Part shown: piece by piece, positions 1,087 to 64,000 of the stretch
Layout of the letters: the number at the start of each line of letters is the position of its first letter
Numbering within the stretch: position 1 is the first letter of the stretch
NCBI GenBank assembly: GCA_947179485.1
Contig: OX359246.1
Span: 35,753,632-35,817,631, forward strand
Length of the DNA: 64,000 bases
Reading direction: 5' to 3'
DNA from: Allacma fusca
Taxonomy: Eukaryota; Arthropoda; Collembola; Symphypleona; Sminthuridae
The notes under the pieces: generated by a model
What the model saw: only the letters and a program-made list of their open reading frames with translations
Databases searched by the model: none
What the model was told of the DNA's origin: nothing
Program-made: the position numbers and the translations under genes

Positions 1087-1584
1087 TGTTACAGCCACAG
1101 TTGGATGTAAATATAAATATTGAAGGACCAGCACTGCTCCTACAGTGCACGTAATCTTTATTTCACAAATCCCTATTTTATCAGCGTCCCTTGTACTGGT
1201 GGTAGCCTTTGCTACCCAACGTGAGTGGAAATACAAGGATGATAAAGGAAAATCAAATTAATATTTCTTTATTGATCACAAACTAGTTGTCATCTCACTC
1301 ACGCCAAAATTCATAATAATAATTTCCCACGCCACATAGCATCTCCTCCCACTCTATTGCATAACATCTGCAACACTCAGCTTACAATAATTTCATTCAT
1401 TCCCATACGTTCAGAATTCCGTCTAACAATTAGTGCTACAAATAAATCCTATGGTAACCACTGCAGTAGAGAAGAGCTTCACCAACCCAATGTGCGCCAA
1501 CTCTTACTGCTGCTGTCGCTTTACTCAATGACATCTTCTATGGCCTCCTCTGCTCCACTACCTGCTATTGTTGTAGACGTTACA
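1087..1584 (-). repeat. 3' LTR of the Bel/Pao element
   Basis: This 498-bp direct repeat aligns with 7201-7698 without a mismatch that I could find. It starts TGTTACAG and ends GACGTTACA on the plus strand, so the ends form a short imperfect inverted repeat (TGT/ACA). The last 64 bp (1521-1584) also encode the C-terminus and stop codon of the Gag-Pol ORF. Confidence 0.97.
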
Positions 1585-7106: not shown

Positions 7107-7180
7107 ATTACTTCAAAATTTCTTCCCAGAAAACTTCTTCGTAGAACTGTATATTTTCTTTTGAACTGATTCACACAATG

Positions 7181-7198
7181 ATCCGGTTCGAAGGACCA
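7181..7198 (-). other. tRNA primer-binding-site candidate of Bel/Pao
   Basis: Two bases inside the 5' LTR the coding strand reads TGGTCCTTCGAACCGGAT. It begins with TGG, the complement of a tRNA CCA end, and contains the complement of a T-loop-like GGTTCGA. This is the standard position for the minus-strand primer site. I did not assign the tRNA species. Confidence 0.75.
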
Positions 7199-7200
7199 CT

Positions 7201-7698
7201 TGTTACAGCCACAGTTGGATGTAAATATAAATATTGAAGGACCAGCACTGCTCCTACAGTGCACGTAATCTTTATTTCACAAATCCCTATTTTATCAGCG
7301 TCCCTTGTACTGGTGGTAGCCTTTGCTACCCAACGTGAGTGGAAATACAAGGATGATAAAGGAAAATCAAATTAATATTTCTTTATTGATCACAAACTAG
7401 TTGTCATCTCACTCACGCCAAAATTCATAATAATAATTTCCCACGCCACATAGCATCTCCTCCCACTCTATTGCATAACATCTGCAACACTCAGCTTACA
7501 ATAATTTCATTCATTCCCATACGTTCAGAATTCCGTCTAACAATTAGTGCTACAAATAAATCCTATGGTAACCACTGCAGTAGAGAAGAGCTTCACCAAC
7601 CCAATGTGCGCCAACTCTTACTGCTGCTGTCGCTTTACTCAATGACATCTTCTATGGCCTCCTCTGCTCCACTACCTGCTATTGTTGTAGACGTTACA
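7201..7698 (-). repeat. 5' LTR of the Bel/Pao element
   Basis: The 498-bp partner of the LTR at 1087-1584. It would hold the promoter and the start of the transcript on the minus strand. The host bases ATCCC follow at 7699-7703, matching 1082-1086. Confidence 0.97.
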
Positions 7699-35765: not shown

Positions 35766-36432
35766 CAGAGTAAACGTAGAGGTACATGTTTTGCATAATC
35801 GTTTTCGTAATAAATGTTTGATAAAATTATTTAACTATACAAATCAAGTTTTTGCAAATAATTCACACTTTCTGGAGTGTATAAGTAAATGATTACTTAA
35901 TAATTAAATAACTAATTATAGCTACTGCTGAACCACGACGAGAATTGCCACCACTAATTTCCATTCAGATTTTAAAATCCGGGACTATCATTACTACAGC
36001 ATTTCCAATTGGTTCATCTATCACTGCGAACGCAGATATTAGACACGTTTTCGAACCTTCAACATACAGATAATTAATCGTCCAAACAATAATTAAACGT
36101 GAATAAACAACTTATTAAATAATTATTAATTTGAACCACTGTCTCACCTCCTAGCGTAACTTCAGGTAACATCATCTGTGGATGTTAATTTAATTAAACT
36201 TAGTTAATTACGTTTCCTACAATAAAACTAATTATAATTAATTAATTTTATGGTCTTCAATTCCTACACTCCGCACTCACAATTTTTCTAATATCCTCAA
36301 TACACCGATCATTACATCTCCCATAATTAAATCTTCAAACGTAAGTACAACAAAGTCACCGGACAATAATTATTAAATTCAAGCAATTCCTTAATCATTA
36401 TTTCATTCCACGCATTAAGTTCGAACCCCAAA
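35766..36432. other. AT-rich spacer
   Basis: Rich in aattaattaa-type words. No gene, RNA or element ends were recognised. Confidence 0.4.
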
Positions 36433-36672
36433 GGACCAGGTACTTGAACTTCACTCGGACCCACCAAGTGCACCTCCAAAGGACCAGGCACTTGGATTTC
36501 ACTCGGACCCGCAAAGTGAATCTACAAAAGACCAGCCACTTGGACTTCACTCGGACCAGCCAAGTGGACCTACAAAGGACCAACCACTTAGACTTCACTC
36601 GGACCAGCCCAGTGGACCTCCAAAGGACCAACCACTTGGACTTTACTTAGACACGGCCAAGTGTACCTACTG
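36433..36672. repeat. 48-bp tandem repeat, five units
   Basis: Units start with GGACCA or AGACCA at 36433, 36481, 36529, 36577 and 36625, so the period is exactly 48 bp. Each unit consists of two 24-bp halves that both begin GGACC and carry opposite arms of a dyad (CCACTTGG and CCAAGTGG). Because 48 is a multiple of three, both strands stay open over the array (16-residue periodic frames). The longest frame is 77 codons and has no gene context, so it is called as a minisatellite. Confidence 0.9.
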
Positions 36673-42657: not shown

Positions 42658-45600
42658 TCAAGTTGCTATTTGATCCGTTTTTGCAACCGGTTTACTCTGA
42701 GAATATTTCGACCGAAATTTAGTTTTACCACGATTGACCAACATTAAAAGATTCCATTTAGACTTTTGAACAGCCGCTGGAGGAACTGTCGCTGGTGCTG
42801 TATTTGTTGCAGGAGGCGCTTTTGCTACAGGAACCGTAATTGTTACTGGGGCAACATTAATTGCTGGAGTTGCTTCATTTGCCACAGGCGCAACATTTGC
42901 CACAGGCGCAACATTTGTTGCCGGAGCAACATTTGTTGCCGGAGCAACTATTGTCACAGAATCCGCATTTGCAACAGGAGCAGGGTTTGCTTCAGGAACA
43001 ACAGTTACAGTCCCTGCATTTTTGGAAATCCCAGAAGCAATCATGCCCGGTTCAATACCTCTGGTCTTCATGTAACTTGTTAATTGCTCTGGAATCTCCG
43101 CTAAAATTTCTTCTGCCAGTTGCCCTTGTGCTAATAGATTTGTCATATCACGACTAGACATTTGTTCCGCTCCATCCGCACTGTAAAAATTTTGTCCTAG
43201 TGCATTTGCTGTGGACTCTCCCGTTCGTTTGAGCCAGGATTCTGCACTACGGTACTCCACAAATTGAACTATATCTCTCTCTGCCTCTTTCCCATTGTGA
43301 ACGAGCCGGGATCCATCCGCATCCAACTCTTCCATTGCTTCAAAGTCCGCCTCACCCACTCCAATGATAATAATAGATATTGGAAGGCCTGCTGCTTGTA
43401 TTACCGCCTGGAAATGACCCATAAATATCAGTCAATATGTACATTTCCCTCTTTCAACCCAAGAAACTTTGTTTGAGGGATCTATGAGTTAAAATGTATT
43501 TTTACACAGAGCTTGATTGTAACTCACCCCTTTTGCTGGATCTGAATCTGTAATAACTCCATCAGTAATAATTGTCAGGATATAATAGTGCTCCCCTGGA
43601 CTACTTTCTTTGGCTAGTTTAATAACTTGATTAATTGCAGGAGCAATATTTGTTGGACCGAAGAGCTGTACCTTGCCTATGCAGCTTCTGCATATTTGAA
43701 ATATATACAATTTTAAATGCAACATAATTAAAATAAAATTCTCGTACACTACACAAAGTCATTATTGAAAATTGCGCAATCATAGGGATTAAGCCAGCCG
43801 GAGGATTTTTAACATGAGTTTTCGTAGTTACCTGTAAGCTCTTACTACACCGTCAATCCCTTTGCATTCTGGAGAATCTGTTAATGTAATGGGGAAGAGA
43901 TGCGAGGTTTCACCTATGGGAGGGATACGGGCCCCGAATCCATACACAGTGAAAGTGTTGGTATTATCGTAATCTTTAATAATTAATCCTGCTGCCGCAA
44001 TGGCTTGTTCATATGGATTTGTCTGTTTTGGATTTGGGGACGTGTGATGCAAGGACGTTGTCTGAGAGGGGTCGCCATTTGAACCTGTCACAAAAAATTT
44101 GAACTCAAAACGTTTATGTATTTTAAGGAGAAAACTGAGTTCGTTCACATAATCTCACAGTTCTCTTGTCAAGATTTAAATGCGTCTTTGCTTTAATACC
44201 ATGCAAATGGATAAATTTGTTTGTCAGCCCAGAATATAAACAAAATTTTGTGTTGTACCACGGTCGTTTTTAGAGTGGTGGAAAATATGATGGAAACAAA
44301 TAATTACTTGTGAAATCTATGGAGAAAATTAAATGTATTTTGGTCCCGGATTGAACAAAATCGAAGAATGTGAAGACTGGCGAGATCTTGCAGGTCAAGA
44401 CGTTCAGTGTAGATCGGATGCTCTGGTAAAAAAAATATCACAAAAATTGCGTTAAAGAATTGTCAGACCCTGAGCACAAATCAGCATAATTTAGTTCAGC
44501 GTTTACTGCAGCGGATCTTACCTGCCCGTTTTTCGCCGTCAGTTGCATTTTCTCGTCTACTTTATTGGCCAACCGATTTAGTGTAGTGAAACAAAAACCA
44601 AAGAGGTCATCTTCGCCTTTCCATGTTCTCCTCCAAACTTCAAACTTGAGCTGTCTCTCCTTGTCTCCGTTGCATAAAGTCCGCCCGGATAGGGTAACAC
44701 TGGGGTAATTGGGGTTCGTGCCCCTAATTTCCTTGCTCCGAAAGACTAGTAAATAAGTGCCGGCGTCATTGACTCTGGAAACTGTAAAGAATGTTTTGGG
44801 GAGGAAGCAATTCGTGATGGAGCCGATGGAATGACCTTGCATTTTAAGGAGTACCTACAGGAAACCCCAAAAGTTAAATTAAACTCTGAGAATAACTCCC
44901 AACTAAGAATTATGTACGTATGTAGATTTATGATCAGGAAAATAATTTAAAAAATAATAAACATCAGATTTAAATAATAATAAGATTTTAAATGTTCTTA
45001 CTTCATCTTTTAAAGACTCCAGTTCTTCAGCAATTAGAATAATTGTACCAGTTTTTGCCCCTGGCTCGTCCGACTCCAGTTCTTTTATGTAACCTTTAGG
45101 CCCGGCAGAGACAATGTTAGCAACAGTACATTCCAAGAATCCAATTGAGTCCTGAGCATCCAGTAATTCCGCATCCTCATCATCAATATCGTACACTTCA
45201 AATCTCAACGTTTGTGATTGTTCAAAGCGGTACTCCATTTGTATCTAAATTCAATCATATGCCCAAACCAATCAGATATACAAAATATAATTCCATACAA
45301 TTTGACACCCAGCACTAATAATATCAGCGAATTAAATGGTTTGAAGTAGGATCATTTAAAAAATACAATAACCTCGGTTTTTTTAAAGTATAACTTGCAC
45401 TTCAAAAACCATGATATTTAAATGGAATCGTCGGAGCAGGAAGTGCTTTTTAAATATTTTCAAATTTAATGCATCCGAACGGCACGGCACTGAATGGTAA
45501 AAATATTTTGAAGCCATGTTAGAGAAGTTGCCGAAGGACCAAGCGTCCAATCGGCATGCGGGTTTTTGAAAGAAGGCTTAAAAAATAATTGGACCCAAAA

Positions 45601-48105: not shown

Positions 48106-51100
48106 CTAATTATTGAGATTGCCACAAAACAGGAGGAAACTAATTAAAACTAATAAATTCATACTGAAATGCAAAACTGGCAGAACTCCATTACGCTCGA
48201 AAATGTGATTCCAAAATTTTGCTCTCTCTTGCAAGTACTTATCTTCAGTCTCAGGTCCCGCTTGTGGGGGGTAGTCAATGATGTACCAATCTACAACACT
48301 ATCGAGATCATTTCCCTTGTGTTTAGGAATGCTGTTCCATTTCTTCCCGAAAGCAGTTGCATCAGGGACCCTATTGCATATAGAAACGATTTTTGTTAGT
48401 TCACATTTCAGGGAAATAAAAAATAGGCCCTGAGCATTGTAAAATAGATGAACTCAGATGAGTTCATCAGATGAGTTCAGATGATAAGATAGTCTGAACT
48501 CATACAGAAGATATAGAGACTTTCCATCCTGCTTACCCATCTCGAGCAAAGGAAACCCACAAATGAACAAACATTTTAGAAAACTCTCCATCTTTGGATC
48601 CTTCCATTATATCTGGCCAACGTTTTTGAGGTTCTTGCAAGGAATTGAAGAGATATTGCATCTCATCAGCATGAATAGGTCCTACTTGTTCTAAATTTTG
48701 AAAAGCTCATCAGTACAGTATATTTTTCTATAAATTGCACGAATAAGTAATGATTTAAAAATCACAAAGCATTTTCCCAAAATTAATAAACTGGACCAAT
48801 GTGAGTAGTTCTGTAATTTAGTTACAATTTTGTTGCTTTTTTTGTGGTATTTTGTTGCAAAAACAGCAGCAAAATAACAAGTTTATATTCGTCCAACAAA
48901 TACGACAACAATAATAATATTGCAATTCAAAACAACAATTTCACTAAATGCAGTACGCTGTTAGACCTCATAGCTAGTTCCGGTTTGGGTATTAGTTGAA
49001 GTTCGGGTTTAGTTTCAAATTCAAATGAAATTGAAACTACTCGAATGAAAAACTCGTTTTTATTGAATTTTTATATGAAGTTTAGATATAAGTTTAAGCT
49101 TTAATTTAGATACTAGTTTCAATTCAGATCAATTTCAGATCAACATTGCATCGAAGTTCAAGATAGAATCGAAGTTCAAGATTGAATCGAAGTTCAAGAT
49201 TGAATCGAAGTTCAAGATTGAATCAAAGTTCAAGACTGATCAAAGTTCAAGACTGAACAGAAGTTCAAGGTTGAATCGAACAACAACAACAGAAAAATAT
49301 TACGTGCAACAACAACAACAAAATTATAACAAACTAAACTCGTTTCGTAAAACGTTCGCTCAAAAATAAACTAACAACTTACAGAACTTAAATGTAAGAT
49401 TAAAATTTGTTATAGAATTACTGAAATCTCGGACGCACAACTACTTGCATTTTTGGTGATGTATCTACAACTTGTAAACAAAAATAATGTAATAAATGTG
49501 TAATAAATGACACTCATAAATAACTTACCTTCCTCAGGAACATTTAAATAGTCCAAAAGGCCAAATGGACCATTGTATTTAAAAGTGTATGCATAAACTT
49601 CAGACCCTGCCTTGGTACTCAAAAGCGCTGCATTCCTCAGCCCCCAAAAGAAGTAAAAATCAGTCAGCAATTGCTCCAGACTAATCCTATCAATCGTACC
49701 GTTCGTTACGGTATGTCTTCCCTGGAAATAAAAGTCCCGAATTGATTGGGATACTCTCTCAATACTATCCTCAGGCTGGACGAAGAAACTGTAGTCCGTG
49801 ATTGATAGCAAAGTTGAGGTCCAGTTTTCGTTTAGGGACCCTACAGCTCCATTGTCTTTGGATATCACTGAAAACATAGAACATAAAAAATCTTTAAATC
49901 ATATTTCTCCATACGTAAAAATCTTCTAAACATTTAATCAATTTTTTGAGACTGTACTAACTAAGTGCTGTTCCCAGAAGCTCCATTTCGATTCGGCCAA
50001 TCATAAGGGGTAAATGCTTGCTGTTGTCTCCACTCCGAATGAGAGTCTCCATTGGTTCAGGGAATACGGAATAGTCTCCTGCTGGAACATTCTTATCAAT
50101 CGTCGGACCAAACTAAAGACAAAAAAATGTATTCACAGGAAATAATAATTTTACTAGGTGATTTAATTTTGAAGCCAGGCTAAGATATTCATTTTGATAA
50201 GGGAACTGTCATATTTTTACCTGGTAAATTTTCTGTTCCTGTATTATATTCCAAATCGACTCATTCTTCAAACACTCTAGCTTCAGAGAATTATTTAAAC
50301 CATTGCAGCAAAGTCGCTCAAGAAAGTTTTTGTATGTTTCTGCGGGATCCGGAACAACATTCCAAGAATTGAGTGCAGAGCCGCTTTGAGCGATGACACT
50401 GTGAAAGAGCCCTGTAAAATAAATTTTTAAGACGTTACACTCATAATCTTGTTACACTTCGTAGAGCGTTCATTACATACTGTATGTATTCAGTGCTCTC
50501 CCACTATAAGAGCAGTCATAAAAGGAATTAAATCTCAGTCTTGAAGTCATATGCAGTTACTTTTGCTAGGATAAAAATTGGTAAAAAAAATATCGAGGAT
50601 GGGAAATGCCCCAAAATGTAACTGTAACTGTAATTGAAAATTACTTAGATGTCTCCTATACAGATATCTATAGTTTCTTCAAACATACCTTTTGCTGCAG
50701 GGCAAAGCATTAAACTGTGAGCTGCTGCTCCCCCAACAGACTCACCGAAAATGGTTACTTTCCCCGGATTACCCCCAAAATGTTGAATATTCTTCTGAAC
50801 CCACTGCAATGCCAGGATCATATCCTTGAAGCCCATGTTCCCAGTCACAAGTCCATCTCCTGTATTAAGGAACCCCAGAGCACCCAAGCGATAGTTGATA
50901 GTGATGAGGATCACATCTTCGTCCATGAAATAGTTCGGGCCTACAATGGATCCACCTCCAGAAATGTAAGCCCCGCCGTGGATATAAAACATTGTTGTGA
51001 GGTTGGCACTAAATTGACTCTAAATATCCAGATCATAGATGTATCTATCTGCATACATAAATCAAGTGTAAATAAATACTTCCCCAATGTTTAAATGGAT

Positions 51101-52683: not shown

Positions 52684-53133
52684 TGTTACGGATATATTAT
52701 AAATACGCTAGAATAAGCATAATCTAAGTCAGCAAATAATTTGGAAGGTCGTAAGCAAGGGCTACGTGACGCCAAACGCTGACATAACATAATTATAAGT
52801 AAAGGAAAGGAAATGATTCAGATTATTTAATAAACAATAAAGATAGGAATAAGATTTAGGATTAGATTAAGACACGTAGATTTAGTACAAGTTCTAATCT
52901 CGACTTCAAGCAAGCAACATCAAGAGGAGCCGCACCTAGAGTCCATTCCCTCCGGGATGGATCTCAAAAGGTAGCAAGCGGGGCAACATGAAATTCGGAG
53001 AATTTCAGGAAGAAGAGATTCAGACTTCAAATTCTATTTTGTGTAAAAATGTTATTTGTTCAGTGTAAATTGTATCAGTTCTAGGAACAATAAATTTGGC
53101 CCGATCAATTATAAACGAACCTACACAACAGAA
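52684..53133 (+). repeat. Possible 5' LTR of the gypsy-like element
   Basis: The sequence begins TGTTACG and contains AATAAA at 53089-53094 and ACAACA at 53128-53133, which would give a repeat of about 450 bp. The right border is a guess. Neither a second copy nor a convincing primer-binding site was seen. Confidence 0.25.
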
Positions 53134-53941
53134 TCAATAGTTCCATTTATTCATGAGTTTCACCAACATCGAAACCATAATTCAGGGGAATTGAACGCCC
53201 GAACCTAGGCTACATTGTCTATTACCCACACAACATCAATACCCGGGTGATACAAATGTAACATGATGTTTCTGCCAGGCCTTCGGGTTTTTTTGGTAAG
53301 GACCCGGAGGATCCGTAGGTCGGGGACCTGCGGATGACCCTGAAACAAAGACCAACTTTGTAGCAAGTACGGTCGCAGTTTTCAAAATTCATGGGATGGA
53401 AGTATGGGGCTCGATAAGGAGAAGATGTTTCATTTCTCTCCAGGGCCACCCGAAACTTCTCGTGAAAGGCAGTTATAACATGCAACAATGTTACCTCAAG
53501 AAAGAAAATTTGGCCATTATCATCACGCGCGGATTCAAATAACAGTTCAGAAGTCCTAGTGCGGCACTAGAAAAAGAACTATTTTTGTGGCCAGAAATAT
53601 TATTTTAAGTGACCAGTGAAATTGGGACTCTTTCCAACCGGAAAATTAGGGGAAGAGGACGTCCAATAAGGTAATACAATTTTTCTTTAAGGTTCATGAA
53701 TTTCATGTTTAGGAGCGCATTAATTTTGTCACGTAGTTACGAGGCGTAGCTAATATTCAGGAGTAATTAACCAGAATTTAGGTGCAAATCATAGATTTAA
53801 ATTAGAAAATTGCGCATATATGTATATGTATTTTGTGGTTTTCAGAGTACATAGTAGGTGTGTGTGCATAAAAAATTTTCACCCAAATTAGCTTCTTCCA
53901 GTAAAAATAAGTCTTCTTCTATCTTTTTAGACGCCTAAAAT

Positions 53942-54957
53942 GCCGGGCTTGAGCGTAGGCATAAACAGTGTTCGTATTGTAAAGAGAACTATTCCGGCTG
54001 AAGGGCCGACGTTAATTGAGCGCAGTATAATAGTAATCTTTCTCTTCGTAAGTTTTAAGTTCCTAATTTCAAAAGGGCCGTTTTTGAGCGTTGAAATTCT
54101 TTTAACTCTTCAAATTACTTTTCAAAGTTTGGGAAACCCCAGGCTAGGGGATAGGAACCCAAAACACAATTAAAATCTTTCAATTAATTGGGACATTTTT
54201 TTATTAATACAAGACTCTCAAAATTCACTTTCAAAGCTAAGTTTAAAGCAAAAATATGATCTATCTTTCAAGTAAATAAATCAAAAAAAAAATTTTCACT
54301 CTCTTCTTTCTCTACATCTTTTCTCCTTCTAGTATAAGCACATTTGAAGGGCCGGGATTGAGCACAAATGTCTTTAGATTCTTTTATCTCCAAATTACGT
54401 AATTAAGAGCCCCTTGGCTAGGTGGCAAAACCCAATTAAAACTCTTTCGCTGAAAATTACTTTCTTTACCTGATGTGTAGGTTTACACGGGTAACAATAG
54501 GATCTATCATAAACTTTTCACAAACATCTTTTCTTCTTCCATCTTTCCATTTTCTACCAGAAGGGCCGGCTTGAGCGCTGGGTAATTAGGACATAATTGT
54601 CATGGGTTTTGGCAAATATTAGGACTTTAAAGTTAATCCGGAAGGCCGAATGTGAGCACGGAGCATATCAGATTTCAGTTAGTTATTTTGCAAATTAAAA
54701 CCTATATAACTCAGTTAGAGAGCATAGGTAGATCAGACTATCTAAAGATTATAGTATGTAAGGTGAACAAAATTTTCTCGGGAGGGCCGAATATGAGCAC
54801 CGAGGTGATTAGGACAGTTTAATTAAGGTTTGAACAAAATTTAGTCCAAAGGGCCGAGGTACATTGAGCGTGGACACATTGGCATAGTATATAAGCATAC
54901 ATATAAGAAAATTCTCATCTACGTAGTTTTAGGGATTCAAGGGCCGAAATGTGAGCG
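53942..54957 (+). repeat. Repeated GGGCCG-TGAGC motif, nine copies
   Basis: Motif copies start at 53942, 54003, 54075, 54349, 54563, 54643, 54784, 54851 and 54941. Each has (G)GGCCG or GCCGGG followed after 0-9 bases by TTGAGCG, TTGAGCA, TGAGCAC or TGAGCG. A degenerate tenth copy lies at 55676-55694. Three copies (53942, 54349, 54563) are preceded by a pyrimidine-rich tract and an AG. Spacing is irregular (about 60-270 bp). Confidence 0.75.
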
Positions 54958-55755
54958 GAATCATTGTTGTATATAAGTTTTAGTATACGTAGAATCCGAG
55001 AGGCTAGGAAGATTAGGAGGGACCTTATGGTTTAGTAGGTTACGAGTCATTCCAAGCACGGAGGTGATCGGATGGAGTGCCGACAAAAGTACCGATAAGC
55101 CTGTGACCTACTAGAGGTAATCGGAGAGGCTATGATTGACGCACCGATATAGGTATATGTTTGTAATGTGCCCGAGCTAGCGGATAGGTAACAGCAATGA
55201 CTATTACTAGTAAGGAGGTCCATGGGTTAGTGGATAGGATAACAGGGGACATTCCAAAGCACGGAGGTTCACTTTAAAATCTATGTATGCGGTTTCCAGC
55301 TATGGCCATACATAGGGACTTTCATATTTATTACTTCTTCCATAGATGACTCATGGTTTTGAGTGCATCATAAGTTTAGCCATTCTCGAAGGATTTTGCT
55401 AGAGTAGAGAGAATTGGCATAAGAAACCACAGGCTCATGGCTTTTGAGATTTGGCTATAGGGATAGGCATTCAGTAAATTCTGGTGCTTTCAGTTTTTAT
55501 TGTCTACGTCAGATACAAGCCTTGCTGATGGTAGGATCGGTTCAAGGAAGTTCTTAGGTACGAATTAGGACGCGAAACATATCCTTTGGGGCAGAAGGGT
55601 AATTAGTAGCGAGGAATACAGTCCTTATTAATTCTGGGAATCATTACAGGAGTATTTAGGGAAATTTAGGCAACACCGGCCCGAATGTGAGGAGTGTTGA
55701 TTGACAATAAGACTGCTAATTTAAGGAGTTAGACGCAACTAGCCATTGCAAATAA

Positions 55756-56000
55756 GTAAGTTTAAGAGGGTTAAGTTTTAAGTTGAGTAAGTTTAAGAGC
55801 AGTAAGTTTTAAGGAGGATAGGATTAAGGAGACTAAGTTTAGAGAAGGTTTAAGTTTTAAAGGACACTAAGTTTTAAGGGGAATAGGTTTTAAGGAGTTT
55901 AAGTTTTAAGGGAATTAAGTTTAAAAGCAGTTAGGTTTTAAGGAAGGAATAAGTTTTAGAGGAAATTAAGATTAGAAAAGTTTAGGTTTTAAGGAAATTC
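55756..56000 (+). repeat. AAGTTTTAAGG repeat array
   Basis: About fifteen copies of AAGTTTTAAGG or AAGTTTAAG variants at irregular 15-25-bp steps, separated by purine-rich words such as GGAATA and GAGACT. The array lies directly before the first ORF of the element. It has no open frame of note. Confidence 0.8.
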
Positions 56001-56377
56001 AGGTGGCAACACCTGAAGGTACTCATTGGAAACGTTAAGATTACAGAACAATTAAGTTTAAGATAGGGTCACAGCTAAAGTTAGGGACGTTCAGGGATTG
56101 AACACTTAGGTTATAAGCACAGAAAATTTCTTTTACAGGTTTCATCACCAAATCGGCAAATTAAGTTTAACAACTAGGGTTACATAAGCATAGGCATACA
56201 AGGCAAAATTTTAGGAAACGGTTTAAGTTGAAATTTGGCATAAGTTTTAAGAAGGTTTTCAGGATTGAATTTGACAAAAGAACTCTCACAACCGTCAAAC
56301 AAATTCATAAAACCAAACTCTACGAAACGCCTTAGCATTTTTCAGCCCATCAAGAAAAAGTTAGGACGTTTACAGGT

Positions 56378-58417
56378 ATGGAACCCGAAAAGAACCAACA
56401 TCCATCAAGAAGGGAACCACCACCTGCACCTTCAATACCATCTCGAAGGACTACGCGATCTGAGGGACCAGTACCACAGAATGAGACAGGCTTGGAGGAG
56501 ATCCTCGCCCGTAGAAAAGAGGAGAGGAAAGCAGCAAAAGCCAAAGCTAATACAGTAACGGCAGGTGTAGACCTCTCTTCAACGTCTTCAGCTTCGACAT
56601 CTATAGTCATGGAAGAATCCGGCAGTACAACCCTGGCATTATCTGCACAAAGTCCATCGGGCTCGCAGGCCATGGGGCACGGAGATAATCCTGACAATAA
56701 TGATGAAAGCATCGATGTGTTCTTGGACACGGTGTCAACACCTGTAACAGGTACGGCAACCAGTCCTAGACGAACACCAACAGTATCGACAGCACAAACA
56801 CCAAAGTTTTCAAAAACAAAGGTGGCGCAAGGACAAAATCTCCATAGACTAGCTATGCAACGAGAATTACGCGACCTCGAGGTAACCAACCTGGAGGGTC
56901 AACAGGTCCAACAGGACCAGGAGGTTGAGGCCACAGGCGAATTCATGCTAAATGCTAGAGGAGACATGGTTTTTGTCAGTCACGATGCTGACCCAACGAT
57001 CAAGGAAATCCTGTCGCAATACAATCAACCTGAGGAAAGACCAACTAGTAGCGCTGCCATGTCATCATTTGAAATTCTCACGGATCCTGGAAGCAATCAT
57101 ACAAGCGCAGAGGAGGTCGAGCAAGGATTTGCAACTCCAGAAAGTGAGATGGAAGACGTGACCAATGAATCACCCAACAATGTGGTTGTCAGCAACTTGA
57201 CAAACCCAGTTGGCAACGGAGACATTCCTCAAGACACGAGCGTACAATCCCAACAGGATGTACAAAGTCGAGGAATGTGCAGCAAAACTACTGGACAAAC
57301 AGAACAACAGGTTAATCAGCAAAGCTCAACGGAATTGGATGACTTGGAGGATTCCAATAGACCAATCGCTATAGCAACAAGTACACCAGAGATTATCCAG
57401 CAAGGGAATCTCAGTACACACTCATCATTTAGGGACAATTTAGCAATAACTCAATCGGACGAGTCGACCGAACAGAGCGAACAAGGTGACTCACCAACAG
57501 GAGTGCCACGTACTAATAACAGTATAGGGAGTGATCGTGACCAGGTCACTACTCAATTAAATCAGCAGTTATCAAATTTAAGTATCAGTGACCACCGTAA
57601 AGCTTCACAGTCAAATACGACAGTTTCTCAACAACCAGATATACAACAACTTGTGCGAGATAGGTTTCTATCAAGACCATCTCCAGGATTTGCCAATAGA
57701 GGAGACGTAGGCTTTCAAAGGACACTCAGCCGGGTGTCTGAGTCTACAGAACAGGAAGGCCCAGTCGAGGATCAGTTACCACCGATCAGAGAAGGGCAAG
57801 ATAACATCCAAAGAGTGGAGGAAAATTTCATACAATTAGTGACAGGTACAGGTGTGATAGTACCAGCGGGTTCATTTCAACAACTAGTGACCACAGCAGG
57901 CTTCCAACGGAACACAGTAGAAAATTTTCTGGTAGTTCGAGGATTGGAAGGACAACTCATAGAGGTGTATCACAGGTTAGCTCAAAATCTTTATACAGGT
58001 ACAGTCCAGTGGACACATTTTTTCCTTAGATTAGCTGAAGTCACCCACAGACGGGACAATAACAGAGATCCGAATAGGGAAGAAAGGGAAGTGTTACGTA
58101 CACGTGCCTTTGAGTACGGTCGGAACGTCAGGGACAACATCTTCATCCCCACCGACGTCATCCGAAACCTTTTAGAGCACCGGGTATTGTCGTTGAGAAG
58201 TCACCAGGCACACCAGGATAGCCAGATTTTCTTCAACGATACACCTAGGTACACAACCGTGATACAATCCGGAAGACTTAGTGAAAATCTAGAATTTGGT
58301 CAACCACGACAAGAAAGACGAGTCAGCGACGAGAGTAGGCCAGGTCCAGAACAAGATCCAGATAACAACGAGACCATTGACTCGGGGTCATTGACTCCAG
58401 CACTGACGACATCATAA
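56378..58417 (+). CDS. Gypsy-like element ORF1, 679 residues, function unknown
   Basis: The ATG at 56378 is the first in this frame after a TAG at 56333; the frame ends with TAA at 58415. The product is polar and mostly low-complexity, rich in Gln, Ser, Thr, Asn, Glu and Pro. A charged Lys/Arg/Glu helix lies around residues 42-60. A more globular part at about 480-640 has regular hydrophobic spacing (segments around FIQLVTGTGVIV, FLVVRGLEGQLIEVYHRLAQ and FEYGRNVRDNIF). No catalytic motif or known domain was recognised. It could be a Gag-extension protein or the first part of a frameshifted Gag precursor. Met occurs several times up to about residue 302 and then never again. The next ORF starts in the -1 frame and overlaps this one by 37 nt. 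Confidence 0.7.
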   Translation: MEPEKNQHPSRREPPPAPSIPSRRTTRSEGPVPQNETGLEEILARRKEERKAAKAKANTVTAGVDLSSTSSASTSIVMEESGSTTLALSAQSPSGSQAMGHGDNPDNNDESIDVFLDTVSTPVTGTATSPRRTPTVSTAQTPKFSKTKVAQGQNLHRLAMQRELRDLEVTNLEGQQVQQDQEVEATGEFMLNARGDMVFVSHDADPTIKEILSQYNQPEERPTSSAAMSSFEILTDPGSNHTSAEEVEQGFATPESEMEDVTNESPNNVVVSNLTNPVGNGDIPQDTSVQSQQDVQSRGMCSKTTGQTEQQVNQQSSTELDDLEDSNRPIAIATSTPEIIQQGNLSTHSSFRDNLAITQSDESTEQSEQGDSPTGVPRTNNSIGSDRDQVTTQLNQQLSNLSISDHRKASQSNTTVSQQPDIQQLVRDRFLSRPSPGFANRGDVGFQRTLSRVSESTEQEGPVEDQLPPIREGQDNIQRVEENFIQLVTGTGVIVPAGSFQQLVTTAGFQRNTVENFLVVRGLEGQLIEVYHRLAQNLYTGTVQWTHFFLRLAEVTHRRDNNRDPNREEREVLRTRAFEYGRNVRDNIFIPTDVIRNLLEHRVLSLRSHQAHQDSQIFFNDTPRYTTVIQSGRLSENLEFGQPRQERRVSDESRPGPEQDPDNNETIDSGSLTPALTTS

Positions 58418-61400
58418 GCAGGTACCTTAGGTACGACCAAAGAAACCCACCAGTAACACGGAATCCGGTTACGGGTTTATTAGAACCAGCATCTAGATCT
58501 ACGCTAAGGACCATCTCAGGCGAGTCAACTATACAACCCGTTACGTCACGAAGGATTTCACCGGAAAGCCTGAATACCAGCTCAAGCTCAATCAACAAGG
58601 CTATAGCCCAAGCAATAGCCTCAGCGACACTTCAAGCAGGTTTAACAACCCCTCGAAATCAGAAGTCGAGTAACTCCGATCGTGACCATCTCAGACCAAG
58701 TAACCAGGTGACGGATAGTAACCAGGTAGATTACTCATCACCCAGGTCACAACTTTTCCAGAAATCGGTGAGAAGACATTACAGGGTAAATAGTGCTGAG
58801 GAAAACAGCAACTTAAATCCCAGGACCAGTCCACAGGGAATTACGACACGTGAGAGACCGAGCAACAGCCGTTGCGAGACAGCCATTCAGAAGGGTAGCC
58901 CAAGAGCACCCACTACATCACCTACAGTCCAGACAGGTAACCAGACACCAGCAGGGAGCTCTGCGGCACAACCGAGAGTGACCCCGAGGTCTAGTAATTC
59001 CTGTCGCTCCACACCTACAACAGGTGAAAGAGGGCAGTCAAGCCGACACAGCAACTCTCACGAGACAACACAGCAAATTAACCCAGTACACATCTCACCA
59101 ACCAGTCAGAATAGACAGGTTTCAACGGAAAATACGCCAAGAAATCGACCAACTCAACCTAACCTGCAATTTAGACCACAACCCACCCAGGACGATTTGG
59201 AGACACCAACGGAAGAGGTCGAGACCACCCAAATTGGTAGTACATCACAGGCTAACGTTAAGAGGGATTTAACGACAACAAAGTTGTACGTCAACACCGA
59301 TTCCACCCAGGCAAACAATAACGAGCAACTGGTACATCGAGTTTACCAGTCACCAGGAGGTCGAATCTACGTACACCCACCCGTACATGCTCTGCGAGCA
59401 CCACCACTTGACGTTAGTGAGACAGCTTTAAGAACATTGGTGCAAGTAGGGAGACAACTAAGAGAACAGAATCCGTCAATAACTATTGCAAATACCATCA
59501 GAAATTCTGACACAGGTACTTACTATCAGGCATTCAGACCCCAGGACAGATTTACCGTCTATCAGTCACCTAGAGGCTCGTTATACAACAGCCTACCGAT
59601 AGGACGCACGGGTATACACCGCCACATTTTACGAGGTCGAGACATCCTGCAACGGGCAACCAACAACGATAGGACCATCATAGAAGGTGGAGAGCTTGTA
59701 ACAGCACCACAACCACCACCTTCGGAACAAACATCTAGAAGCAACGAGTCATACGTCCAAGGTGACACCCTAAGGTCACGGACAGCAACACCTGCATCAA
59801 CAACACGTGCAGCAACGACTTTTGCAGTACCAGCTAGACCAACCGGAAGGTTCATAACCAGGTCAGCAAACCGACCAACGACACCGACAGCTCCAGCTGT
59901 CCCCGTCAGACCAAATTCAGCAGTAGCAGGACCATCTCGAGTAACAACAACTCCAACCACAAGTCAAGGTAAAGTCAGTTGGCTTGACGACTTACAATAC
60001 GGAGTTGACATTTGGACAGGACCCAGTGGCAGAGTATACACCAGCGAGAACGAAGCCACCGAAGACGAGTTAGTACCAAGCAGAATAACAACGAGACAAT
60101 ACGCTAAGATCGCCCGAAAACAAGACAGATTCAGAAACCAGGGGGTAGAAAACGAAGCGACTTGGACAGGCCAAGTGAGACGCCTGATCTATTATAACAG
60201 AAGGGACGGTATTATACAACGAAGGTTCAGACCAGCAAGAGATTCAAATTTTGAAGCATTTGCAGCTACAAAAGCTGAACACGAAGAAATTGTTCTGAGT
60301 GAACATCCGATATTTACCTTCTGGAATATAATCACCCGAAGATCTTTAGATCCAGGGCAGATCTCCAGCTACATCGCACCCAATTTTAGACTTTACCATC
60401 GACACATCAGTCTACCGAACGGCGTTCGCAGACAAAGGGTACCACCAGGCTTCTTGGATAACATCGAGAACGAACACGACCACCAAGAGGCATTGAATAG
60501 ACTAATTCACGATCCTAACGTGGAAATCTTGAGTGACACATCTAGCGAGGAAGAAGAAGAGCAGGTAGTACAGAGAGACACTCCAAGACGTGAGAGTGGT
60601 CAGCATAACAGTGCACAGTCTAGTGAAGAGACAGAGCACATCTTCATTGGAGTTGACGAAGAGGACTTCATTATCCCAGAAGTACCAGGTCAATTTACTA
60701 TAAGAATTTCTATAGACGACGCCTACGACGCTGCGTTTAGAGCAATTGAAAGAGACGAAGAACTACAAGAGGAAGTCCGATTTGTGGATAATACCGGAGA
60801 AACTCACTTCTTCTCAAGAATCCGACTTCGAGACCTTAGTCCGGAAACTCAAGTTGTACTCACTCAAGTCAGAAAGAGACGTAAACCCTTACGAGCACGC
60901 CGTCAAATCGGAAATAACCAACCCAGACCACCAGGCCCAGGACCAAGTGGATCAGGGAGAGGAAACCAGTCGAGAGGAGCTAACAACAACAACTCCCACA
61001 ACCAGCGACCATCTCAATCAAGGTCAAATCCAGGTCGAGGAGGCTCAAGAGGAGGTAGACACATCGGAGGCAGACGGAGAGCAAGGAGCGACCCCGGAAG
61101 TTCCGGAGGGAGCAGCTCATCATCCAGCTCCAGTAGTAGCAACCCAAGTAACCCTCACGACTTTGAAGCCTTCGACAACTGGAGAAATAGACAGATTGTA
61201 AACAGAAATAACATCTTCAACCAGGTCAACGTTAACATCATCAACCCATACGTACCAATCAATCCAAATCAGGGAATACGTATCGAAGACGTTGCAGACG
61301 AAGAGCAGGTACGAATAATTCCAAGGAGACATCTGGACGACGACATGACCGCCCTCATGTTTCCCAAAGTAGAATTTAAACCGGGTGTAGATGACCCAGA

Positions 61401-62931
61401 GACAGCCTTCGCAACAGCCGAACTCCAGACCAACAGGTTTGGAGGAGATACCATCATAACCAGGATGCAATACGTACAGATCATCTTTGACCCACACGTC
61501 AGGGATTGGATCAGAAATTGGATTGCTGAACGAAGATTACATGAGGAACAACCATACGACACCATTGACTGGGATGAATTCAGAGAGGAATTCCTGATAA
61601 GGTATAGTATTACCGACCAAATGATACGTACGCTGATGGAAAAGCGAAAGATGCACACAGATGAGGATCCATGTGCATACATAGATGCCAAATTAGCACT
61701 AATCAATAGAGTCGACAGATTTATGCCCGAGATGGAGAAAATCAGACTCTTACGTGCAGGATTAACATCCGAATACATAGTCTTCTGTCGAGGATGGACA
61801 GCAGAGACGGTAGCAGATTTTGTAATTGGAATTAAACAATACGATGAAGATCGAAAAACAGATGGAGCGGAGTCCATCGAAACAAGATTTGTCAAAGTAC
61901 AAGAAATGTTAGAGAAATTGACCTCTGGAATGAAAGCAGCTCCAACGGAAACAACCGTCGTGAAAGTAGCCGCAGTGAGAGAACAACAGGACTATCGGAG
62001 ACCTGAAAATAGACCTAACGACCAACGAGGACGCAGTCCAGGTCAGGGAAACTTCAACAACTCACGGAATTCCAGTCCAGGTTACAGCAACAACAACAAC
62101 TTCCCGGACAGGGGACGTAACAATCAAGGTTACGATGACCGAAGGAATTATGGGAACCGAGGTAGATCTCCAACACCTGAGAGATTCTACAATAATCAAG
62201 ATAGGAGTAGGCCGCAGTACACAAATGATGGCAATAACTCCAACAATCAAGGTTACCCTCAGAGGAACCAAAATTTCGGATCTAGACAAAGTCCGAACCG
62301 ACAATACTACAACAACAACCCTAACAACCAGGGAAATCGTCAATGGAATGACCAACAGATGAACCAAGGATACAACGGCTATAACACACAAGGATTTAAT
62401 CAAACTCAGGGCTTCATGCCACCTCAGGGGTTTAATCCGAATCAAGGATACCCACCACAACAGGGTTATGCACCGTTTCAAGGTTATTCACCCACCCAAG
62501 GGTATGGACCATCTCAAGGATACGTACCACAACAAGGGTACGGTCAAGGACAAAATGCAGGGTACGCCAACCCTGGCATGCAACAAATTCAGGCCAACCC
62601 ACAAGGTTATCAGAACCAGGGTTACCAGCCAAACAATAACCAAGGAGGTCAACGACCCCAACAATACAACAACAATAACAACAGGAGTAGAACTAACTCC
62701 AGGGACCGGAACAGCCAAAGTAATGACAGAAACAACTCCTGGAGGAATCAATCAGACCGCCAGGAGCAGTCACAACCGATACCGGGACAATTGGCACTAG
62801 AATCCACTCAAACCGACATAAAGTGTTTCGGATGTGGAGAGATGGGCCACCTGAGGAGAAATTGCCCACACAAAAGACAATCTAGCCCATATCCGTCGGG
62901 AAACTCACAGAGGGGGACGCACCCCCAGTAA
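58381..62931 (+). CDS. Gypsy-like element ORF2: Met-free region plus Gag with CCHC knuckle
   Basis: The frame is open from 58381 (after TGA at 58378) to TAA at 62929, 1,516 codons. Its first in-frame ATG is at 61345, so the first 988 codons contain no Met. That part is low-complexity with a few structured blocks and three related YQSPxGRxY-like segments (59341, 59557 and about 60007). From 61345 the sequence is a conventional 528-residue Ty3/gypsy Gag. It has a retrotransposon Gag (capsid) domain at about 61350-61860 with an FREEFLIRYS block, a Gln/Gly/Tyr/Asn-rich prion-like stretch (62362-62640) and a CCHC zinc knuckle at 62824-62865. The Met-free part may be reached by -1 frameshifting from ORF1 or by non-AUG initiation, or Gag may be made separately from the 61345 AUG. 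The sequence cannot decide. Gag identity is certain; the role of the N-terminal 988 codons is unknown. Confidence 0.8.
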   Translation, partial: LGVIDSSTDDIISRYLRYDQRNPPVTRNPVTGLLEPASRSTLRTISGESTIQPVTSRRISPESLNTSSSSINKAIAQAIASATLQAGLTTPRNQKSSNSDRDHLRPSNQVTDSNQVDYSSPRSQLFQKSVRRHYRVNSAEENSNLNPRTSPQGITTRERPSNSRCETAIQKGSPRAPTTSPTVQTGNQTPAGSSAAQPRVTPRSSNSCRSTPTTGERGQSSRHSNSHETTQQINPVHISPTSQNRQVSTENTPRNRPTQPNLQFRPQPTQDDLETPTEEVETTQIGSTSQANVKRDLTTTKLYVNTDSTQANNNEQLVHRVYQSPGGRIYVHPPVHALRAPPLDVSETALRTLVQVGRQLREQNPSITIANTIRNSDTGTYYQAFRPQDRFTVYQSPRGSLYNSLPIGRTGIHRHILRGRDILQRATNNDRTIIEGGELVTAPQPPPSEQTSRSNESYVQGDTLRSRTATPASTTRAATTFAVPARPTGRFITRSANRPTTPTAPAVPVRPNSAVAGPSRVTTTPTTSQGKVSWLDDLQYGVDIWTGPSGRVYTSENEATEDELVPSRITTRQYAKIARKQDRFRNQGVENEATWTGQVRRLIYYNRRDGIIQRRFRPARDSNFEAFAATKAEHEEIVLSEHPIFTFWNIITRRSLDPGQISSYIAPNFRLYHRHISLPNGVRRQRVPPGFLDNIENEHDHQEALNRLIHDPNVEILSDTSSEEEEEQVVQRDTPRRESGQHNSAQSSEETEHIFIGVDEEDFIIPEVPGQFTIRISIDDAYDAAFRAIERDEELQEEVRFVDNTGETHFFSRIRLRDLSPETQVVLTQVRKRRKPLRARRQIGNNQPRPPGPGPSGSGRGNQSRGANNNNSHNQRPSQSRSNPGRGGSRGGRHIGGRRRARSDPGSSGGSSSSSSSSSSNPSNPHDFEAFDNWRNRQIVNRNNIFNQVNVNIINPYVPINPNQGIRIEDVADEEQVRIIPRRHLDDDMTALMFPKVEFKPGVDDPETAFATAELQTNRFGGDTIITRMQYVQIIFDPHVRDWIRNWIAERRLHEEQPYDTIDWDEFREEFLIRYSITDQMIRTLMEKRKMHTDEDPCAYIDAKLALINRVDRFMPEMEKIRLLRAGLTSEYIVFCRGWTAETVADFVIGIKQYDEDRKTDGAESIETRFVKVQEMLEKLTSGMKAAPTETTVVKVAAVREQQDYRRPENRPNDQRGRSPGQGNFNNSRNSSPGYSNNNNFPDRGRNNQGYDDRRNYGNRGRSPTPERFYNNQDRSRPQYTNDGNNSNNQGYPQRNQNFGSRQSPNRQYYNNNPNNQGNRQWNDQQMNQGYNGYNTQGFNQTQGFMPPQGFNPNQGYPPQQGYAPFQGYSPTQGYGPSQGYVPQQGYGQGQNAGYANPGMQQIQANPQGYQNQGYQPNNNQGGQRPQQYNNNNNRSRTNSRDRNSQSNDRNNSWRNQSDRQEQSQPIPGQLALESTQTDIKCFGCGEMGHLRRNCPHKRQSSPYPSGNSQRGTHPQ
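61345..62931 (+). CDS. Probable separately initiated Gag, 528 residues
   Basis: This is the same frame as ORF2, taken from its first ATG. The length is normal for a Ty3/gypsy Gag, and the capsid domain starts right after this Met. All ATGs upstream, in every frame, have been lost over 4 kb except one, which is what would be expected if initiation here matters. Start choice is therefore an inference from the ATG pattern and family length. Confidence 0.5.
   Translation: MTALMFPKVEFKPGVDDPETAFATAELQTNRFGGDTIITRMQYVQIIFDPHVRDWIRNWIAERRLHEEQPYDTIDWDEFREEFLIRYSITDQMIRTLMEKRKMHTDEDPCAYIDAKLALINRVDRFMPEMEKIRLLRAGLTSEYIVFCRGWTAETVADFVIGIKQYDEDRKTDGAESIETRFVKVQEMLEKLTSGMKAAPTETTVVKVAAVREQQDYRRPENRPNDQRGRSPGQGNFNNSRNSSPGYSNNNNFPDRGRNNQGYDDRRNYGNRGRSPTPERFYNNQDRSRPQYTNDGNNSNNQGYPQRNQNFGSRQSPNRQYYNNNPNNQGNRQWNDQQMNQGYNGYNTQGFNQTQGFMPPQGFNPNQGYPPQQGYAPFQGYSPTQGYGPSQGYVPQQGYGQGQNAGYANPGMQQIQANPQGYQNQGYQPNNNQGGQRPQQYNNNNNRSRTNSRDRNSQSNDRNNSWRNQSDRQEQSQPIPGQLALESTQTDIKCFGCGEMGHLRRNCPHKRQSSPYPSGNSQRGTHPQ
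62362..62640 (+). repeat. QGY-type repeat within Gag
   Basis: About a dozen octapeptide-like units of the form QGY-x-P-x-Q or QGF-x-P-x-Q are encoded in tandem. The units are degenerate at DNA level, so selection on the protein is likely. The composition (Gln, Gly, Tyr, Asn, Pro) is that of prion-like, phase-separating domains. Confidence 0.85.
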
Positions 62932-63173
62932 TTGAAGATATCCAAGAAAGAATGAATGCAATTATAGCAACTAGAGTAGAAAGTCAGTCAAAAGACGACG
63001 AAGAATTAGAAATTATTGATCTCAACCCATGTCGCTTATCAAATAGCAACAAGTCAACTTTACAAGTGCAAATATGCAGTATGATGATACCAGCTTTACT
63101 AGATTCAGGAGCAACAAGATCCTGTATCCAAAGAAACTTAGTACCCAGATGTGCGGAAATAAAAGAAGTTTAA
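62886..63173 (+). CDS. Retropepsin N-terminal part (gypsy-like element), in -1 frame to Gag
   Basis: The frame opens after a TAG at 62883 and overlaps the end of Gag by 46 nt. Its first ATG is at 62952. It carries the aspartic-protease active-site block LLDSGATRS at about 63097-63123. The frame ends at TAA 63171 before the second half of the retropepsin fold, which continues in the next frame. The overlap with Gag is typical for expression by -1 frameshifting, but no perfect slippery heptamer was found (a CCCCC run is at 62922-62926). Confidence 0.8.
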   Translation, partial: PISVGKLTEGDAPPVIEDIQERMNAIIATRVESQSKDDEELEIIDLNPCRLSNSNKSTLQVQICSMMIPALLDSGATRSCIQRNLVPRCAEIKEV

Positions 63174-64000
63174 GCGCTCTGCGAGTAGCAGTAGCAAATG
63201 CAGAATTGGTTAAACCAATTTGTCTCACCAAATTCACAATGATGATTGAAGGTGAAAAACTTTTATTCAAAGGTCTAGTGATGGAAACGCTAGAACCACG
63301 AATGATTATAGGTGAAGATCTTTTATCACGTTATGGAATAACGTTGGATTACAAGAATAATGAAATACGGAGTGACCGATTTCAAACAGTTCCAATGACT
63401 AGAGACACTCATCTCTATGTCGGGGAGAAAAAGGCCGACATAGAATTTGTCAGGTCAATTTTTTCATTTCATGAAGTCAAAGGACCAAAGAGCATGAGGT
63501 GCAGGACTCGAAAAGCAGTCATAATACCAGCCTATGGACACATGAAAGTGCCCATACAAATTCCAAAACGCATCAAAAAGGATTTTTATTTACAACCATC
63601 AGAGAAACTTTATACCAGCAAGCGACTTTTAGTAGCCGCAGGTGTAGTACCAAATAAAGAACCTTTCGCATATGTATTTAATCCAGCTCCATGCCCACAG
63701 ACAATGTATGGACGGACAGCTATAGGTCATGCTGAAGAAAATTTCGATCTCATCAAAATCAAGCGCAATCAATTACGTGATGCTCATAAAAGGCTCACAC
63801 AAGAACAGCTCGATTGTTTCGACGTCAATGAGGAGCTCGATGAAGAAGGAAGAGCCAAGTACAGAGCATTGTTGACAAGATATCCAGAATGTTTCGCATT
63901 TAACAAGGGAGATTTGAAAGAACCAGCGTGGATTGATCCCATTCGGATCCATACGGGAAATAATCCACCCGTTCAGGCAAAACCCTTCCCTTGCTCACCA
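63161..64000 (+). CDS. Protease C-terminus and start of Pol (gypsy-like element), partial
   Basis: From about 63161 the third frame is open to the window end, about 280 codons. It begins with the remaining part of the retropepsin, including an MIIGEDLLSRYG block that matches the conserved I(I/L)GxDxL motif. It continues through a linker into the sequence just before reverse transcriptase (PIRIHTGNNPPVQ and KPFPCSP, like the H.I.T....P....P...SP entry of Ty3/gypsy RT). The active-site residues of RT, RNase H and integrase lie beyond the window. Because the split is inside the protease domain, a 1-nt indel in this copy is more likely than a functional shift. Confidence 0.8.

Follow-up and report, generated by a model that had tools for sequence, protein, structure and literature searches.

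A 4-kb coding stretch cleared of AUGs leads to the Gag start codon of a very large Ty3/gypsy-like element in Allacma fusca

The window analysed here comprises 64,000 nucleotides of the genome of the collembolan Allacma fusca (GenBank assembly GCA_947179485.1, contig OX359246.1, positions 35,753,632 to 35,817,631 of the forward strand). Its right-hand part holds the beginning of a Ty3/gypsy-like retroelement in which the Gag gene is preceded by 4,003 nt of protein-coding sequence with a single ATG. We refer to this interval, 57342-61344 on the plus strand, bounded by the ATGs at 57339 and 61345, as the desert. The features of the element in the window, with open reading frames abbreviated as ORFs, long terminal repeats as LTRs and the ratio of nonsynonymous to synonymous divergence as dN/dS, are the following:

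52684..53263, plus strand: candidate 5′ LTR (TGTTAC...GTAACA), unconfirmed, proposed from its terminal sequences, with AATAAA at 53089
53264..56377, plus strand: long 5′ leader, described by its ATG counts
56378..57341, plus strand: ORF1N, the start of the long ORF, with normal ATG density and a dN/dS of 0.19
57342..61344, plus strand: AUG desert, protein-coding (1 ATG versus 28.6 expected; synonymous tests; dN/dS; 20 of 20 copies; second family)
58381..58417, plus strand: end of ORF1 (frame 2) and opening of the ORF2-Gag frame (frame 1), the break of this copy
59387..59389, plus strand: the single desert ATG, with a pyrimidine at −3, opening an ORF of 14 codons; 12 of 21 copies have ATG at this site
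61345..62931, plus strand: Gag, 528 amino acids, with a CCHC zinc knuckle, identified by profile matches; right edge of the desert
62898..62904, plus strand: GGGAAAC slippery heptamer, followed after 7 nt by a hairpin of 5 G-C base pairs
62886..64000, plus strand: protease and start of pol; the frame is interrupted in this copy and pol runs on past the window

The long ORF opens at an AUG in a strong context (GGTATGG, with a purine at −3 and G at +4) at 56378, after which come another 18 ATGs, the last at 57339. Upstream, the leader carries 36 ATGs between 53263 and 55684, against 31.0 expected; an ATG-free run just before the ORF1 AUG (55688-56377, 0 versus 2.6 expected) was set aside as not significant, with 109 of 1500 trials as low. 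Gag matches zf-CCHC at 23 bits (cut-off 20.8) and Retrotrans_gag at 17.3 bits, under the cut-off of 24.1, and the context of its AUG is GACGACATGA.

Our recount of the plus strand agrees exactly with the initial annotation of this sequence, which had reported one ATG, at 59387, in the 4,003 nt. The expectation of about 62 that it gave assumed equal base use and is too high. The sense strand, rich in A and poor in T (0.18 T), should hold fewer, and real base and dinucleotide use about halve the figure, to 28.6 (standard deviation 5.3); none of 1500 simulations based on the desert's own dinucleotides yielded one ATG or fewer. Two other descriptive claims stand: the loss is specific, ATG being the most depleted of the 64 triplets at 0.035 of expected (CGC is second at 0.52), and ATGs are frequent on both sides, with 17 versus 15.9 expected in 56381-57338 and 33 versus 25.9 on the 3′ side. 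Because the count of CAT, which is ATG on the opposite strand, is ordinary in the desert (60), the loss is a sense-strand effect. In-frame methionine is absent from the 358 codons at the end of ORF1 and from the 988 of ORF2, and occurs outside the desert at 9 of 321 codons at the start of ORF1 and 14 of 528 in Gag. No clear depletion of near-cognate start codons in good context was seen in the desert (11.2 per kb, versus 13.2 in Gag and 15.6 in ORF1N), and RNA folding within it is ordinary (mean z −0.47 and −0.49).

ATG avoidance in the desert is selection on the bases themselves, beyond amino-acid choice alone. When the protein was held fixed and synonymous codons were permuted 2000 times, a codon-preserving count of the kind that the initial annotation had proposed, out-of-frame ATGs proved far below expectation: the end of ORF1 has 0 versus 4.8 expected, a count reached by 1 permutation in 2000, and ORF2 has 1 versus 12.9, reached by none of 2000. 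Before a G, desert codons read NAT once and NAC 46 times, compared with 76 and 98 before other bases (p=3e-9). Both controls lean the other way: the remaining pyrimidine-ending codons of the desert favour T before G (57:34, versus 149:155 before other bases), and the ORF of a BEL element in the same window favours NAT before G (62:27, versus 76:90).

The same desert is found in other copies of the element. A search of the 393-Mb genome with Gag gave at least 82 listed matches, from 1018 candidates, which we call family A, and 20 of the 81 other listed copies, hand-picked to span near and far ones, were fetched. Intact copies with normal ATG density were what the initial annotation had named as evidence against its observation; all 20 copies keep the desert, with 0-5 ATGs each between −4003 and −1 of the Gag AUG (33 in total) and with the last ATG upstream of it at −4004 to −4016. 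The Gag frame is open across 4,998 nt upstream in 12 of the 20, with an AUG at −4968 that is the counterpart of 56378, and is broken in the other 8, as in the window copy. ORF1 and ORF2 therefore form a single ORF, which damage has split at 58381-58417. The continuous open frame noted initially is real and whole in these 12 copies, and its division into ORF1 and ORF2 belongs only to damaged ones. Frames of 2,196-2,251 amino acids accompany 65 of the 82 listed Gag matches (2 of the 65 with a stop inside the match); that of the window copy has 1,516.

The desert codes for protein: dN/dS is 0.14 and 0.13 in its two parts, compared with 0.19 in ORF1N and 0.05 in Gag (66 pairs of 12 copies). Among 210 pairs of 21 family A copies, which are not independent of one another, desert differences average 5.3% per site, and those that make or break an ATG number 598 of 44258 (1.35%), 3.4-fold below the 4.6% expected of random changes as simulated from one copy with a fixed transition share of 0.7. 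Outside the desert such differences are near expectation (ORF1N, 9.6% versus 9.1%; Gag, 7.7% versus 9.8%). As a separate observation, family A copies have diverged less at synonymous sites in ORF1 (0.083 and 0.10) than they have in ORF2 and Gag (0.17 and 0.18), which may reflect RNA signals or recombination.

A more distant family, B, bears the same feature in weaker form. A search with 59935-60936 listed at least 120 matches, 6 of them at 54-55% identity, and 2 of these 6 were fetched; both keep a desert. One shares 53% amino-acid identity with family A over the aligned ORF, and the two use the same codon at only 49% of 887 identical residues. None of this copy's 1,368 desert codons encodes methionine, and its out-of-frame ATGs number 7, compared with 16.4 expected under synonymous permutation (4 of 2000 as low); before G its codons read NAT 6 times and NAC 44 times, versus 62 and 123 before other bases (p=0.0026). 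In the other copy the first methionine of the frame is at the Gag start, and 7 of its 9 desert ATGs are at sites shared with the first copy.

The ATGs that persist are not a random sample. The recurrent ones of family A (4 positions, including 59387) and all of those of family B (9) have a pyrimidine at −3, so that a purine at −3 occurs at 0 of these 13 positions, whereas 32 of the 52 ATGs of ORF1N and Gag have one (p=5.6e-5). This dependence on context points to translation initiation and is hard to explain through a bias acting at the level of DNA. Among family A ATGs private to one copy, a purine stands at −3 at 6 of 15 positions, as selection against usable starts plus some later decay in old copies would predict.

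The right edge of the desert, which the initial annotation had placed at the first codon of Gag, is indeed the Gag AUG at 61345, and is the Gag AUG in both families. A change-point fit places the left edge at 57340-57435. Because the ATG at 57339 has T at −3, the last well-placed upstream ATG is that at 57275. In family B the last ATG before the desert is at −4109 and has A at −3; in the alignment, which is poor in this region, it falls about 12 nt away from the position matching 57275.

We propose that this very large Ty3/gypsy-like element encodes Gag in two forms, the shorter of which would be reached by ribosomes that scan about 4 kb from near 57.3 kb; we give this reading a probability of roughly two in three. 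The long form would start at the strong AUG at 56378; in copies with an unbroken frame it would comprise about 2,190 codons, and about 1,650 of its residues form an N-terminal extension. The short, ordinary Gag would start at the internal AUG at 61345. We infer that both forms are made. Since the 36 leader ATGs, the strong ORF1 AUG and the 18 ATGs beyond it rule out plain scanning from the 5′ end as a way to Gag, ribosomes bound for the short form would enter near 57.3 kb, past the last well-placed upstream AUG. Entry probably occurs on a shorter capped RNA, spliced or transcribed from an internal promoter, which seems the simplest route. Scanning over the desert would then account for the removal of usable AUGs in all three frames while the extension continued to be coded. 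The sequence itself shows the desert and where it begins and ends, coding constraint, selection that is specific to ATG and depends on context, and a single long frame in many copies. The initial annotation had suggested that ribosomes scan or reinitiate to reach the Gag AUG: the all-frame purge ending at that AUG fits scanning, and reinitiation after a separate ORF1 is not needed.

Several observations weigh against this proposal. An in-frame ATG lies in the desert at −3429 in 2 of the 20 fetched family A copies, and the family B copies, with 7 and 9 desert ATGs, have more than those of family A, their depletion being weaker. The contrast between recurrent and private ATGs is also weaker than that with ORF1N and Gag, at 0 of 13 versus 6 of 19 as first sorted (p=0.059). 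Evidence for splicing is weak. A donor-like CAG/GTATGG overlaps the ORF1 AUG, has the second-best score of a splice scan and is found in family B too, but acceptors near the left edge score low (0.1 at 57432 and 1.7 at 57998, versus 5-6.5 for the best in the leader), and because the leader beside the donor is 74% identical between the families, conservation of the donor is not special.

Ribosomes might instead use the full-length RNA, entering internally or shunting over the leader and ORF1N before scanning to the Gag AUG. This route explains the same desert edges, and rice tungro bacilliform virus (RTBV) and cauliflower mosaic virus are described as shunting over AUG-rich leaders (PMC5902531); a 120-nt segment at 57163, just upstream of the left edge, folds well (z −3.9). 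The longer fold that might serve as a shunt structure (57130-57345, 216 nt) is not significant, with z −1.29, and no conserved block was recognised at the left edge between the families. We consider this route unlikely, though it deserves to be kept in view. We give little credence to the idea that the desert guards a long polyprotein because internal AUGs would yield truncated, harmful Gag extensions. In-frame methionine is missing from the deserts of both families, bar two copies, as that idea would have it, but the purge extends to out-of-frame ATGs, from which no Gag product comes, and an internal AUG would matter only if scanning ribosomes passed there anyway.

Initiation at a non-AUG codon or a frameshift from ORF1 to ORF2, either giving a methionine-free product, had been offered initially as the alternative. 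The frames are separate in the window copy, and near-cognate codons in good context are present, for example ATT at 58390. This alternative is largely refuted by the single AUG-started frame in 12 of the 20 fetched copies, and the ORF1/ORF2 overlap in the window lacks a canonical slippery heptamer; we regard it as very improbable. Least likely of all, and practically negligible, is that the desert arose by chance, from base composition or through a mutational bias that disfavours ATG. The A-rich, T-poor sense strand does lower the expectation, but the simulations, the synonymous tests with their internal and external controls, the strand specificity, the dependence on a purine at −3 and the persistence of the desert in two families argue against it, and a normal ATG density was found in none of the 20 other copies.

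A related possibility concerns the stretch to the right of the window, L051, whose base 1 is window position 64001. Coding sequence after the integrase (L051 4290-6346) is again poor in ATGs, with 6, of which none has a purine at −3, and L051 4001-6300 has 9 versus 20.4 expected (4 of 1500 as low); both counts come from one copy and are post hoc. A 431-codon ORF follows, starting at L051 6347 in a weak context. We tentatively raise, at less than even odds, the idea that the element has a second, weaker AUG-purged scanning track of about 2 kb before this ORF, besides the 4-kb Gag track. Each track would then let a shorter RNA carry ribosomes over kilobases to one AUG while its bases still code.

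The energy of the hairpin after GGGAAAC is −13.1, versus −8.0 (standard deviation 2.3) in 300 shuffles, and a −1 frameshift from Gag to protease is predicted at this heptamer, so that Gag-to-protease expression looks ordinary. To the right of the window, pol has the order reverse transcriptase, RNase H, integrase that is typical of Ty3/gypsy-like elements (Metaviridae), with RVT_1 and RT_RNaseH in L051:1-1173 and the integrase domains H2C2, rve and p58_C in L051:1177-5721; its frame is interrupted between the RNase H and integrase parts in the window copy. A further open frame extends over three adjoining stretches, from L051 7594 to L055 903; its pieces, which were not joined, sum to about 1,770 codons, and the two of them that were scanned gave no Pfam match at E<=0.1. 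The 15.5 kb that follow the window on its right yielded no 3′ partner of the candidate LTR, which leaves the 5′ LTR and the total length unproven; if all is one piece, the element would measure at least 26 kb. No primer-binding site was recognised. Just after the candidate LTR are two strong neighbouring hairpins (53263-53420; z −4.1 for the first 120 nt, −2.08 for 158 nt). The leader also has about nine copies of a motif, GGGCCG...TGAGC(G/A), spaced roughly 60-300 nt apart (53942-55690), and a tandem, AT-rich array whose repeat unit measures about 16 or 32 bp (55757-55970).

Queries with ORF2 plus Gag, Gag and ORF1 (7984, 5004 and 7994 candidates scored) returned no protein relative outside the genome at E<=0.001, and scans of viral contigs and genome contigs gave no confirmed relative. 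Pfam has no family at E<=1 for ORF1 or 58708-61344; the PDB has none at E<=1 for ORF1 and weak matches only (E 0.16-0.83) for ORF2 plus Gag. Rfam and tRNA scans found nothing. An alignment-free structure of 59935-60936 was not used (mean predicted local distance difference test score, 35.4), and internal repeats in ORF1 and ORF2 were not convincing (best z 3.5).

Elsewhere, the window holds a BEL/Pao element on the minus strand (1087-7698) with a 1,861-codon ORF and two 498-bp terminal repeats whose identity marks it as recent. There are also pieces of host genes on the minus strand, at 42658-43422 and 49410-49877, with a match to copine (5.1e-23) and a weak one to carboxylesterase below cut-off, and a 48-bp minisatellite of 5 copies (36428-36668).

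Among known systems, RTBV and the badnaviruses offer the closest likeness in the clearing of AUGs from a coding region so that scanning reaches a downstream AUG, and also in a long AUG-rich leader and the tolerance of a short, weak upstream ORF; no internal AUG occurs in the roughly 900 nt of their ORFs I and II (PMC5902531). All-frame clearance before the main AUG is present here in both families. As presented in the same source, the viral arrangement differs in being about 900 nt long, with separate ORFs and an upstream AUU or weak AUG (PMC5902531). Here the stretch is about 4,000 nt, in one frame with Gag in many copies, in an animal host, and a weak or non-AUG upstream start is not present, the ORF1 AUG being strong by its purine at −3 and G at +4.

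Gammaretroviral glyco-gag is likewise an N-extended Gag in the same frame beside the ordinary one. It initiates at a CUG, unlike the extension described here, which has about 1,650 residues and a strong AUG. The in-frame arrangement itself is shared: in 12 of 20 fetched copies the frame opened by the AUG at −4968 continues without a break to include Gag. The glyco-gag start is in leader sequence (PMC3423011). Green-algal bicistronic genes show ATG depletion before a second start, which tests have tied to leaky scanning, but these are cellular genes with short first ORFs, of median 291 nt in A. protothecoides (PMC11291117). Ty1i is a shorter RNA of an LTR element that begins within the Gag gene and uses an internal AUG; its product, unlike ours, is a truncated Gag (p22) that restricts the element, and the relevant parts of PMC5408680 describe no long AUG-free stretch.

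Within the Metaviridae, MDG1-group elements (412, mdg1) have accessory coding upstream of gag (sORF1 and sORF2), but these are about 110 and 70 amino acids long, with no splicing observed in them (PMC11952523), in contrast to the 1,650-residue in-frame extension here. No counterpart of the short transmembrane ORF of the MDG1 group, sORF2 with its FAST-like protein, was found in ORF1 (679 codons; top 19-residue hydropathy 1.09) or ORF2 (988 codons; 0.78), short ORFs of the leader lying outside that search. Burro of planarians and Ogre of plants are also very large and gypsy-like, with extra coding capacity (PMC6431247); in Burro, Gag is at the N-terminus of a huge polyprotein, and the available part of that paper mentions no AUG-free tract. 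A literature search on AUG-free stretches and upstream ORFs in LTR elements, with subscription papers outside its scope, found no retroelement with this layout.

If the proposal is correct, selection for scanning on a natural coding RNA would be seen here in unusually long and clean form, over about 4 kb rather than the 900 nt of RTBV, and in an animal element. The reach of a scanning ribosome could then be tested directly. Looking for all-frame loss of ATGs, the corresponding synonymous choices and the sparing of weak contexts is a cheap sequence test that could reveal hidden internal starts in other elements and viruses. The element also brings to light a Gag whose conserved extension, about 1,650 residues long, matches nothing in the libraries searched and, on the reading we favour, would be coded by the very bases over which ribosomes scan.

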